Shown piece by piece: positions 4,464 through 40,852 of a stretch of DNA of 64,000 nucleotides. Made by a program: the position numbers and the translations under genes. Source of the stretch: Hyperoplus lanceolatus (lineage: Eukaryota > Chordata > Actinopteri > Uranoscopiformes > Ammodytidae); assembly GCA_026929865.2 (NCBI GenBank), contig CM049407.1:21224501-21288500 (forward strand), given 5' to 3'. The notes beneath the pieces were generated by a model. That model made no database searches. It was given only the letters and a program-made list of their open reading frames with translations, and was not told the DNA's origin. The first letter of the stretch is position 1. Every line of letters starts with the position of its first letter.

Positions 4464-7400
4464 CACCAACAGCTGCGTGGATGATTTAAGAGATGACGAT
4501 GACAAAGACAGAGCTAAAAGGTACTTAGTGTTGTGTCTATAGTGTAAATGTTTGTTTGTAAGTCTCTCAGCTTGGACTTGTATCTTCCTGTATAAAAAGT
4601 ACAGGTATATTCTGCACATTCTTCATGTACAGAACTAACCTAATGCTACATTAATTTGTAGGTTTTCTCTATGCCTCTTCAGTAATCTTTGGTTTACTCA
4701 CTAAAAAAGAAACCTGAAATTTAAATGCTACATTATGGTTAAGAATGTATTCCATGAAAATGTAAATCTACCAGAGCATAACCTTAGATTAAAAACATAA
4801 TTCTGCTAAAGAATGTATTCACATTTACGTACCTATTTGTCTTATTAATTCACATGTATCACATAACCCTTTTGGGTACAAGAAGCAGAATAAATCAAAA
4901 ACAGAGTTGACAGACACATCCCTAACTGGTTGCTTAATACCTGCACATCTGGCAAACAGGGAGAAATATTAGAATTAATTTGAATATGTGCTTTTGGCCA
5001 ACTCTTGAATGTAAATCCAATATTCCGTTTTCTTTTCTTCTCCCCTTTGCAAGTGTGTCCTTGTTTTGGCTTGCTATTGTCTGTATGTGTTCAATTAACA
5101 GTTATATGATTGGCTAAGCCTCTACCTGCAATTCCACTGTTAATTGTTCTCATGTGTTGACTGCTGCAGGGAATCTCGTAACAAATCGGAAAAGAAAAGA
5201 AGAGACCAATTCAATGTGCTCATCAAGGAGCTATGCACCATGCTGCAGGGTCAGGGCCATCCGCGCAAGATGGACAAGTCCACCATACTGCAGAGAACTA
5301 TTGACTTCTTGCAGAAACAGAAAGGTAGGAAAATGAACATAATCCATATATTTACAGCATGTTTTATTAGTTTGAAACATGGGATTGTGTGTAACTAATA
5401 TTCTTCCCTACTTATCTCTTGTCTTTTTCAGACATGACAGCACAGAATGACATTTGTGATGTGAAACAGGACTGGAAGCCTTCGTTCCTCAGTAATGAGG
5501 AGTTCACTCAGCTCATGCTGGAGGTAAAGCTCAGGAGGATGTGTTTGTAGTAACAGCACAAGTCTGTTAAAGTTTTGACAATGACTGATATTGATAATAA
5601 GAAAGAAGAAAAAAAAGTGCCCATGGAGGACTGGGTAGGATGACACGATGGGAATACAAATTTCAGCAGAGTTATATTTTCACCGTTTCACTGCATTGTT
5701 GGAAAAGTAAAGTCACCATTAACTGTGGTAGCAGTAGAGGAGGCACTTTGAGGACAAATGGGGCATGAAAAAGGAAAATATCAGAAGTCAGCAACTCATG
5801 TCAACATCATTTTGTAAAGCATTTAACAACCACAGATGATGATAATAATATGAGACAGCGCAAGAGTCTACTTTTTGTCAAACTCTCTCCCTCTCCTTAC
5901 AGGCCCTTGACGGTTTCTTGATAGCTTTAACTACAGATGGCAACATCATATATGTATCTGACAGTGTGTCTTCACTTATTGGCCATTTACCGGTAAGTGA
6001 CAAAGCTTTAACAAATTGCTTTCATTCTCTTGCTAATTCTGCATTGTTCTGTTGTTGTCCTTTGTATTTACATTTTGGCTAACTATCTTCAGGCTCATTT
6101 AAACATCCAAACATGCCAGTTACATGTTTACCGATATGTATTGGCCAATATTGGACTCTTGCACTTCAAAATCCATATCAACACTATATTATATGAAAGA
6201 CTAACCATCATACATTTATCTTTTTTGCACCAGTCAGATATGGTGGACCAAAATATCTTGAATTTCCTCCCGGAGCGGGAACACGGCGAAGTGTATAAGC
6301 TGCTATCATCCCACATGCTGATGACTGACCCCGGTGCTGCTGACTTCCTTGACAGTGAGTGTCCTACTGGCTGGCCTCTCTGTGCACGTCTCACCCCTGT
6401 CTGCTCCTGTCTGTGTCTCCCACATTTGGAGGTCAACAGTTCAGTATGTGGGGAAAACACATAGCCTAGTGGACATGTCATTTGTTCAATTGATTTTTAT
6501 CTAAAACACCAAAAAAAAAAACTTCTGCCAGTCTTGTCCAATTTCTATTCAAAGCATGCTTATGTTTATTTCAGAGCGCTCCCAGTTATACCATCACCTA
6601 AAACTTGTTATATATATATAGAGCAGGTTGCTGAAATAGGCTCTAAAGTTCATTGGATTGCTGATTAGCGTGTAGCTATGATTAGCTTTTTAGCTAATAA
6701 TAGGAGCTGGCTTAGTATCATGGTTAAGACTTCAAAGCGGGGTTATGTTAGGACAGTAATCCAAACCAATGTAGTATCTGGGGCTCAAGACACTGACCTT
6801 AATCCTGTGTTACTATTATGATTTTCCGAGTAAGAGATCTGGTGAGTCCATGGTGTCTCAGTCTATCCTTTGAAGCCTCAATAGCAAACTGTCACAGAGC
6901 CATGTCTGGTGTGATCATCAAGTCTTTGGCACACTTCTAAAATGCTTCTATCTTTTGTATTCATTGAATAGATAGGAATGTCTAGCTTTTAAGGCAAAAT
7001 GACTTGCCTGTCCTACCAAAACGTTTCAATTTGTGAGCTTCTGTGAAATAATTGGCTGCTCATTCGCTGTCAAATTATGAACACGTCCATCGTAAATCTG
7101 CAGGGAATTCAAAAGTCGAGGTCAGAGTGTTCCATTAGTGCGTGACCACTTGAGAGAGTTGACGTTGGAAAGTGACTGAAGCTTAAAGTGCACTTGTTAT
7201 GCTTTTAAGCCACAAACCTCCTAGTTGGACCTTCCCAATGGATGTAGGAATACATTTATTAAGGACTGTAGTTATTTTAGGAATTTGACTGAACCCTTTG
7301 TTGATATGAACCTGTATTTTCTCCTCATGCTATTTCACAAGTTCAGTGAACATTGTTGTTGTTGTCCAACCTATGAAAGTATGATGAATACAAGTGTTTT

Positions 7401-39900: not shown

Positions 39901-40852
39901 ACATTGGTTAATGTCTTTTTGTGTGTAATTAACAGGTAGAGGAAAAGTGGACCTGCAGGCCTACCTGAAACAATGGCAAAATGAAATACTTAAGAAAGAG
40001 GAAACCATCAAGGACCTACCCAGAATTAATCAAGTAATTCAATCTATGTTGCCTTATTAAAGATGGCGTCAGCGATACTGGAGAATGCTAGTTATCAAAA
40101 TCAGTGAATATTTCCTCACGATCCGCTACCTGTCCGTACTTTGTGTGCAGAGAAAAAAAAAACTGTGTTAATACACAGCCTAGGCTCTGAAAACTGGTAT
40201 GTAAACAAAGGGGGCCCGCCGTAGCTCGCAACATACTAGTTTACAGAGCTTAGGCTGTGTATCAACACTTGATTTTCTATAAACACACAGTACGGATTTT
40301 CTTCCTGGAATGGAAAAAATAAATGTCTAATGTGAAGTATAACAGTAAACTGCTTTTTATGTTCTATTGCAGAGTCAATTCATCCAGTTCTCCAAGACCC
40401 TGTACAACATATTTCACGGCGATCCAGAGGAGGAGTCTCTGTACCGAGCGGTGGCCCACGTGACCAGCCTTCTCCTGAGGATGGAAGAGGTCGGTCGGAG
40501 GCTGCAGGAGCCTAGCAGCCCGCCCGAGTCCTCAAAGCTCGCAAACAACAACACTGTTGCTGCTGCTTCTGCTGTTGCTGCTGTTAGTGTTGTTGTTTCT
40601 GCTGAGGATGAGGAGTCTCCCACCACTGAAGAAGCCTCCACCACCCCGGAGAGCACCGACACATCAGGCTCCCACAGCAGCCAGGACGCGGGGCCCGACC
40701 TCTCCGAGATAGACTGGTCCTTTTCCTTCGAGCAGGTCCTGGCTTCCCTGCTAAACGAGCCGCTCATAGTCAGATTCTTTGAAAGGCCTGTCGATGTCCA
40801 GGCTAAACTGCGACACTGTAAAGTGGCCCAGCTGAAGCTCAAAGGCAAATAA
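27968..40852 (+). CDS. tbc1d8b: TBC1D8B, GRAM- and TBC-domain Rab GTPase-activating protein
   Basis: This protein stimulates GTP hydrolysis by Rab GTPases in vesicle trafficking; human mutations cause nephrotic syndrome. Exons: 27968-28094, 30111-30221, 30386-30504, 30893-31118, 31360-31600, 32964-33171, 33302-33469, 33587-33748, 33946-34096, 34311-34525, 35018-35135, 35820-36105, 36206-36335, 36422-36520, 36603-36671, 36753-36993, 37085-37150, 39801-39848, 39936-40033, 40373-40852. They sum to 3363 bases, 1120 residues plus stop, like the human protein. GRAM domains lie at about residues 145-215 and 285-355, TBC at about 490-680 with the arginine finger in IERDLHR and glutamine finger in IGYCQ, and an EF-hand-like loop ([13 protein letters not shown]) near 865. 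The start [18 protein letters not shown] matches the family. The linker around exons 17-19 is shorter than in human and exon 20 has an Ala/Ser/Thr/Glu-rich insertion. Exons 10-13 are very conserved. Identity is secure. Confidence 0.97.
30753..30814. repeat. CA microsatellite upstream of TBC1D8B exon 4
   Basis: About 30 CA units in intron 3, ending about 80 bases before the exon starting at 30893, close to where the branch point is expected. Confidence 0.95.
31790..32900 (+). repeat. L2-like LINE 3' tail split by a later insertion
   Basis: The sequence before 31870 (GTGAAGCCCACTGAGG ... TTGTGATATTGGGCTATA) and after 32871 (AATAAAA..CTGATTTGAATTG) form the two halves of a common fish L2-type tail ending in a TGAATTGA-like run. 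The pogo-like element interrupts it exactly at a TA. Confidence 0.55.
31870..32869. mobile_element. Pogo/Tc1-like nonautonomous transposon in TBC1D8B intron 5
   Basis: Ends are GGGGAGAACGGGG at the left and CCCCCGTTCTCCCC at the right, flanked by TA on both sides (31868-31869, 32870-32871), the target of the Tc1/mariner/pogo superfamily. The exactly 1.0 kb unit has no transposase frame. Motifs of the type GTGGCTCACTTT(A/C)CCCC recur inside it (about 32056, 32480, 32502, 32829). Confidence 0.8.
35179..35721. mobile_element. MITE in TBC1D8B intron 11
   Basis: Inverted ends CTACATTTACATGCAC and GTGCATGCAAATGTAG bound 543 bases with no coding capacity. Internal copies of ATTCCGATTAAGGT-like sequence occur at about 35200, 35538 and 35618. 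I could not read a clear target duplication, so the superfamily is left open. Confidence 0.65.
40134..40295. repeat. Long hairpin in TBC1D8B intron 19
   Basis: CCGTACTTTGTGTG...ACACAGCCTAGGCTCTG...ACTGGTATGT (from 40134) pairs with ACATACTAGT...CAGAGCTTAGGCTGTGT...CACACAGTACGG (to 40295). The arms are about 65 bases, imperfect, with a GC-rich loop of about 30 bases. It could be a foldback MITE. Confidence 0.8.

Follow-up and report, generated by a model that had tools for sequence, protein, structure and literature searches.

A CLOCK/NPAS2-family gene beside RADX and TBC1D8B in Hyperoplus lanceolatus is probably a single npas2 derived from the X-side copy of an early vertebrate duplication

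Introduction

The genome of Hyperoplus lanceolatus contains a CLOCK/NPAS2-family gene next to RADX and TBC1D8B. This gene is probably the only npas2 (clock2) of this teleost and the X-side copy of the 2R duplications, the 2q-side copy having been lost. It lies in a window of 64,000 nt, the whole stretch of DNA analyzed here (assembly GCA_026929865.2, contig CM049407.1, positions 21,224,501-21,288,500, forward strand). Its presence beside RADX and TBC1D8B had been proposed in an original prediction and is borne out by exons, Pfam domains and bit scores. Most comparison proteins, including human CLOCK and NPAS2, were provisional sequences, and the scope was this one fish genome.

Results

Structure of the gene

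The located exons of the window gene (Table 1) have AG/GT splice sites and share a single continuous frame to the stop codon; the exon carrying the start codon was not located. The encoded protein belongs to the CLOCK/NPAS2 family, as it has a bHLH and two PAS domains in the order of CLOCK together with a C-terminal coiled-coil and a glutamine-rich region. Its best PDB match in phmmer is CLOCK (8osj_M, E 6.9e-185, query residues 1-360), and the loop of its bHLH is two residues longer than in the provisional sequences of human CLOCK and NPAS2. Judging from its family, the product is most likely an activator of the bHLH-PAS type, predicted to pair with BMAL and to act on E-box genes. The missing start-codon exon and the CAG array within one exon might suggest a pseudogene or an assembly artefact, but this is hardly credible for a gene on a contig of 33.0 Mb in which the splice sites of all 20 exons are intact and the frame stays open as far as the stop.

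Table 1. Coordinates of features within the window
Feature	Position	Strand	Evidence or content
CLOCK/NPAS2-family gene, 20 coding exons	4464-14968	+	exon alignment; phmmer
Coding exons 1-5	4464-4520, 5170-5324, 5432-5523, 5903-5992, 6234-6354	+	
Coding exons 6-10	7484-7597, 7826-7944, 8816-8898, 8991-9097, 9278-9425	+	
Coding exons 11-15	9576-9660, 9746-9872, 11035-11132, 11279-11359, 11810-12067	+	
Coding exons 16-20	12581-12784, 13252-13433, 13777-13869, 13978-14188, 14750-14968	+	
bHLH-coding exon	5170-5324	+	exon alignment
PAS-B exon, most conserved	9278-9425	+	exon alignment; genome search
Polyglutamine-tract exon with CLOCK-family coiled-coil segment	11810-12067	+	CAG array 11822-11905
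RADX	19947-25201	-	12 tblastn pieces against a provisional human RADX sequence, one at E 0.026
TBC1D8B	27968-40852	+	GRAM, RabGAP-TBC and EF-hand domains
GJA3-like connexin	52749-53732	-	Pfam Connexin, E 8.4e-99

Neighboring genes

The window gene is flanked on both sides by BRWD3, RADX, TBC1D8B, GJB1 and OPHN1, all of which are X-linked in human, and it thus sits in an Xq-type segment, the setting of an X-side 2R copy. RADX is also recognized by Pfam (PF17659, E 1.8e-36 at 24557-25348, minus strand), and the TBC gene scores 1498 bits with TBC1D8B against 1096, 1052 and 930 bits with TBC1D8, TBC1D9 and TBC1D9B, respectively (provisional human sequences). For the other genes, the scores are 1750 bits for BRWD3 versus 1436 for PHIP (BRWD1 left out of the comparison), 355 bits for GJB1 versus 323 for GJB2, and 858 bits for OPHN1, which was scored without its paralogues. 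One report describes ophn1 as a common neighbor of ar and arb (PMC9141715).

Several features of the block sit less well with an X-side origin. The window gene and TBC1D8B are arranged in tandem, both on the plus strand with RADX in between, whereas human NPAS2 and the adjoining TBC1D8 are convergent. In addition, the GJA3-like connexin has a near-identical second copy at L039:4004-5059, and these two GJA3-like genes are of 13q type. The X-type synteny is also incomplete. The synteny with rnf128 that the original prediction proposed to check was not found: an RNF128 query gave 23 matches in the genome, none of them beside the window gene or TBC1D8B. The best of them is a single-frame gene of 428 aa on C1, and C13, the chromosome of the window, has a lone RING piece 7 Mb off; neither RNF128 nor RNF149, also named in the prediction, could be assigned to a locus. 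Likewise, no IL1RAPL match fell on C13, and IL1RAPL2 was not found beside the window gene.

Location of the 2q-type genes

In human, NPAS2 is located between CHST10 and RPL31 in a region of 2q11 type, flanked by genes of the tbc1d8, LONRF, CNOT11, CREG, RPL31 and CHST10 types. In this fish, tbc1d8 is at C11:8.09 Mb (729 bits over 10 kb versus 545 for the next), and a LONRF match follows at C11:8.14, about 36 kb from it, as one of five LONRF matches, called at family level, on C11, C8 and C5. CNOT11 has a match at C11:1.01 and CREG at C11:11.49, where CREG1 and CREG2 are indistinguishable. On C24, a CHST10-family match (8563959-8565398), called from family PF03567 and position only with its two pieces among 35 matches, is separated by 4078 bp from RPL31 (8569477-8570698). 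A phosducin search gave two loci, neither pinned to PDCL3.

The window gene therefore lies outside the 2q11-type segment marked by CHST10, RPL31 and TBC1D8, where an NPAS2 orthologue would be expected. A plain NPAS2 orthologue could nevertheless have evolved rapidly in the fish line after a transfer out of the 2q-type segment into the X-type one, and rearrangement did happen, since the neighbors of human NPAS2 are spread over C11 and C24. However, such a move would have had to land by chance beside TBC1D8B, the paralogue of the old neighbor TBC1D8, and we regard it as unlikely.

The labels "X-type" and "2q-type" are themselves not clean, because the two strong matches of the IL1RAPL query are on C11 and C24; each may be IL1RAPL1 or IL1RAPL2, and both of these are X-linked in human. 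The same query gave a weak match (E 4.6e-4) that is IL1R-like at family level. If fusion or reshuffling of segments took place around 2R, these labels would fail to separate the NPAS2 lineages, and the near-equal distances of all three proteins would leave the order of the splits open. This scenario is improbable given that TBC1D8, TBC1D8B and TBC1D9 each occupy a clearly distinct locus, with TBC1D9 accompanied by RNF150. The TBC gene at C5:31.52 Mb, considered as a second tbc1d8, was rejected as such and is TBC1D9 (1377 bits versus 1131 for the next); RNF150 adjoins it (510 bits versus 373 for the next), a pair of 4q31 type by human location.

CLOCK-family loci in the genome

Whole-genome searches with the window protein and with the provisional human NPAS2 sequence, in which counts are lower bounds, revealed at least three CLOCK-family loci: two of clock1 type, on C9 and C5, and the window gene. 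Both queries led to the same three loci, where 28 of the 31 matches of each fall, and the remaining three are short stretches resembling PAS-B, two of them on C6 and the third on C22. Neither query had a CLOCK-family match on C11 or C24 or found a second npas2 beside tbc1d8, and a search for a CLOCK remnant within 30 kb around tbc1d8 on C11 gave one match at chance level (E 4.9). With three loci found and no second npas2, the separate npas2 next to tbc1d8 that was to support the original prediction is missing, and its suggestion of an extra circadian activator in fish is not supported. Of the first finding that the prediction had named as counting against itself, one half, the absence of a second npas2, holds for the loci found.

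Protein comparison and tree tests

In the bHLH-PAS region, the window protein is 69.6% identical to human NPAS2 and 69.1% to human CLOCK; the two fish clock1 proteins, encoded at their separate loci, have 83.4 and 83.6% identity to human CLOCK. At 57 sites where human CLOCK and both fish clock1 proteins agree but differ from human NPAS2, the window protein is CLOCK-like at 23, NPAS2-like at 12 and neither at 22, so the mixture of NPAS2-like and CLOCK-like residues foreseen earlier is real. In its C-terminal half the protein is somewhat closer to NPAS2 (147 bits versus 130 for CLOCK in blastp, part of the polyglutamine omitted), and the C-terminal motifs LLRESS and TLGY are common to the window protein and the provisional NPAS2 sequence. 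This lean speaks for a relocated NPAS2 orthologue and against an X-side copy.

Tree tests were made on a small tree of few taxa, which does not place the protein. Of three rootings, the one that groups the window protein with NPAS2, as expected of an orthologue, fits worst, yet the AU test does not reject it (p 0.106, 0.16, 0.101 and 0.135); bp-RELL excludes it in one of four tests (0.0494). When the two are forced together they have almost no stem in common (0.007, 0.0007 or 0.0095, versus 0.15-0.165 for the CLOCK clade), which argues against orthology. A grouping of tbc1d8b-linked copies as a teleost-specific duplicate had been named as a finding that would contradict the prediction. A teleost-specific (3R) duplicate of clock1 has only family similarity in its favor and is extremely improbable: a position as sister of the fish clock1 genes within CLOCK is rejected with few taxa (AU p=0.000169 and 0.000189), the log-likelihood being worse by 33.6 and 33.8.

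Discussion

How could one fish gene combine an X-type neighborhood with a protein almost equally distant from CLOCK and NPAS2? An ancestral CLOCK-TBC1D8 segment would have been duplicated in the early vertebrate 2R, giving rise to an X-type copy as well as a 4q-type copy (CLOCK) and a 2q-type copy (tetrapod NPAS2). Of these, the X-type copy would have survived and the 2q-type copy disappeared on the way to this fish, with the opposite outcome in the human line, which would make fish npas2 a hidden paralogue of mammalian NPAS2 rather than its orthologue. The claim that the window gene is the X-side copy is partly supported, by the X-type block and by the NPAS2 flanking genes lying elsewhere; the protein tree does not resolve it, and no RNF128 was found beside the gene. 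A "third paralogue" is tenable as a third 2R lineage only, and three such lineages are not shown in this genome.

Mammalian NPAS2 belongs to the same family and shares the two C-terminal motifs; it differs in its 2q11-type location, and the identity of the window protein to it hardly exceeds that to CLOCK. The window gene is most likely the same gene as npas2/clock2 of other teleosts, placed on zebrafish chromosome 5 and medaka chromosome 14 in Paibomesai 2010 (PMC3161366). Teleost npas2/clock2 is a single-copy member of the CLOCK family alongside clock1-type genes, as it is here.

If other teleosts indeed carry the same gene and its origin dates to 2R, all teleost npas2 would be the X-side paralogue, ray-finned fishes having lost true NPAS2 and the mammal line the X-side gene. 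Comparisons of function between fish npas2 and mammalian NPAS2 would then be made between paralogues, and some basal vertebrate may still hold three or four CLOCK-family 2R copies. We hold this broader view to be only slightly favored. Chicken CLOCK itself is on chromosome 4, so that the chicken case in a 2014 paper on IL-1R paralogous loci, reportedly by Gibson, may mean CLOCK. The statement there, about loci on chicken chromosomes 1 and 4, is worded as "some of" them, with data not shown (PMC4090809); this fish differs in having no IL1RAPL match on C13. This reading has thus been published in part (Paibomesai 2010, PMC3161366; PMC4090809), and literature searches on ophn1 and on gar LG7 did not place gar clock2.

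The clock activators found in this fish are the usual three, so their number is unchanged. If the hidden paralogy is true, however, the name npas2 is wrong for the fish gene, and conclusions carried over from mouse NPAS2 span genes that have been split since 2R. It would also represent a clean reciprocal loss of 2R copies among core clock genes, and would single out gar, sturgeon, sharks, coelacanth and frogs as places to look for surviving extra CLOCK genes.

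The CLOCK/NPAS2-family gene and its neighbourhood

The original prediction placed a CLOCK/NPAS2-family gene beside RADX and TBC1D8B, and a gene-by-gene check confirmed these names and coordinates (see table). The window covers C13:21224501-21288500, and its genes resemble those expected in a ray-finned fish. Twenty coding exons of the family gene, with AG/GT borders, form one open frame, while the start-codon exon was not located; the bHLH-PAS part of the protein matches CLOCK in the PDB (E 6.9e-185). Exon 11810-12067 contains an in-frame array of CAG units encoding a polyglutamine tract directly ahead of the coiled coil, and such tracts often vary in length.

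Within the window and 40 kb on each side, an X-type block (segments are named after the human location of the matching genes) surrounds the gene, because its neighbours OPHN1, GJB1, BRWD3, RADX and TBC1D8B are all located on human Xq. BRWD3, below the window, scored 1750 bits versus 1436 for PHIP, the one paralogue used for comparison; in and above the window, GJB1 scored 355 bits versus 323 for GJB2, and OPHN1, scored alone, gave 858 bits. The exception is a tandem pair of near-identical GJA3-like connexins, GJA3 being on human 13q. The block is incomplete: an RNF128 query of the genome found none beside the window TBC1D8B, which RNF128 adjoins in human, and an IL1RAPL query found no match on C13, the contig of the window. 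An RNF128-like gene on contig C1 is perhaps a retrogene, for which RNF133 and RNF148 provide a precedent.

Coordinates of genes and elements (window positions unless a piece under study, L039 or L040, or another contig of this genome, C1 to C24, is named)
Feature	Position	Strand	Remark
CLOCK/NPAS2-family gene	4464-14968	+	
CAG array	11822-11905		28 units, 97% matches
RADX	19947-25201	-	
TBC1D8B	27968-40852	+	
GJA3-like connexins (2)	52749-53732; L039:4004-5059	both -	
GJB1-like gene	L040:6-470 and L039:9718-9999		adjoins GJA3-like pair
LINE-like element	56063-59046		reverse transcriptase (RVT_1, E 2.8e-33) within a frame of 749 aa; weak Exo_endo_phos piece (E 0.0018)
CLOCK-family locus (clock1)	C9:4.02-4.03 Mb		
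CLOCK-family locus (clock1)	C5:about 19.27-19.28 Mb		
tbc1d8	C11:8.086-8.107 Mb		
IL1R-like TIR match	C11:8.27 Mb		weak
CNOT11	C11:1.01 Mb		
CREG	C11:11.49 Mb		
CHST10-family sulfotransferase match and RPL31	C24:8563959-8570698		4078 bp between them
IL1RAPL-type TIR genes	C11:11056091-11059765; C24:11891822-11897095		
RNF128-like gene	C1:15185753-15186589		single uninterrupted frame, 428 aa

Protein comparisons

The compared region was the bHLH-PAS part plus coiled coil, with provisional human, mouse and fly reference sequences, of which CLOCK alone was verified (353/358 residues against 8osj_M). The window protein shares 69.6% identity with human NPAS2 (421 sites) and 69.1% with human CLOCK (424 sites); the two clock1 proteins of this fish share 83.4% and 83.6% with human CLOCK, and human CLOCK and NPAS2 share 73.2%. 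In the best tree the window protein falls next to the CLOCK clade, weakly supported (70.7/61), and AU values under two models were 0.74/0.72 for this position, 0.38/0.40 for a basal one and 0.106/0.16 for grouping with NPAS2. Adding the provisional mouse NPAS2 changed little (AU with NPAS2 0.101, although bp-RELL excludes that grouping at 0.0494), as did using alignment columns 76-405 only (0.135), and forcing the window protein with NPAS2 gave a shared stem of 0.007, 0.0007 or 0.0095. The C-terminal half leans the opposite way, with 147 bits to NPAS2 and 130 to CLOCK. Such distances, tree and scores would be expected of three lineages splitting at about the same time, for which sequence alone is not decisive. 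Separately, an origin as a duplicate of fish clock1 was rejected (AU 0.000169/0.000189).

CLOCK-family loci and 2q-type segments

The genome search (807 Mb, 527 contigs, four of them 33-38 Mb long) scores best candidates only, so match counts are lower bounds. The window bHLH-PAS protein gave at least 31 matches, 28 of them in three loci (the window, C9 and C5), and the provisional human NPAS2 sequence retrieved the same loci, again with 28 of 31. Exons on C9 and C5 are CLOCK-like, and no separate npas2, which the original prediction would have taken as support, is among the three. As far as these searches show, the repertoire of this fish is the usual one: two clock1 genes plus a single npas2.

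The human order is LONRF2, CHST10, NMS, PDCL3, NPAS2, RPL31, TBC1D8, CNOT11, RNF149 and CREG2, with NMS, PDCL3 and NPAS2 between CHST10 and RPL31. Genes of this 2q-type lie on C11, where tbc1d8 is clearly separate from TBC1D8B and a LONRF match follows about 36 kb beyond it, and on C24. Neither the window protein nor the provisional human NPAS2 sequence found a CLOCK-family match on C11 or C24; the 2q-type NPAS2 therefore seems lost from both. Both contigs carry IL1RAPL-type genes (IL1RAPL1 and IL1RAPL2 undistinguished), which fits C11 and C24 being 3R partners and blurs the X-type and 2q-type labels, because both IL1RAPL genes are X-linked in human. A 4q-type TBC1D9-RNF150 pair shares C5 with one clock1 gene.

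Discussion

The window gene is most likely an ordinary teleost npas2, as the teleost gene is called in papers on salmon (PMC8674837) and cod (PMC4062345). Paibomesai et al. (2010; PMC3161366) distinguish a teleost from a sarcopterygian lineage of NPAS2, a pattern that in their view points to differential silencing following 1R or 2R. Their map has NPAS2 on chr 5 in zebrafish and on chr 14 in medaka, and they regard the stickleback gene named NPAS2 as a Clock3 copy. Gar has clock1 (LG4) and clock2 (LG7), with NPAS2/CLOCK2 treated as a single name (PMC6723592). The idea is partly anticipated by Paibomesai et al. and by a 2014 paper on the chicken IL-1 family (PMC4090809), but an outright statement of an X-side origin of teleost npas2 was not found in the papers named here, which came from searches of open-access literature.

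The gene had been read as an X-side copy kept in fish and lost in human, perhaps an additional activator. Its X-type synteny holds, but the extra activator does not, and the number of circadian activators stays as it was. Because of this synteny, there is a good case for regarding the gene as an X-side ohnologue rather than as orthologous to mammalian NPAS2, and its family membership suggests that the protein would act as a BMAL partner.
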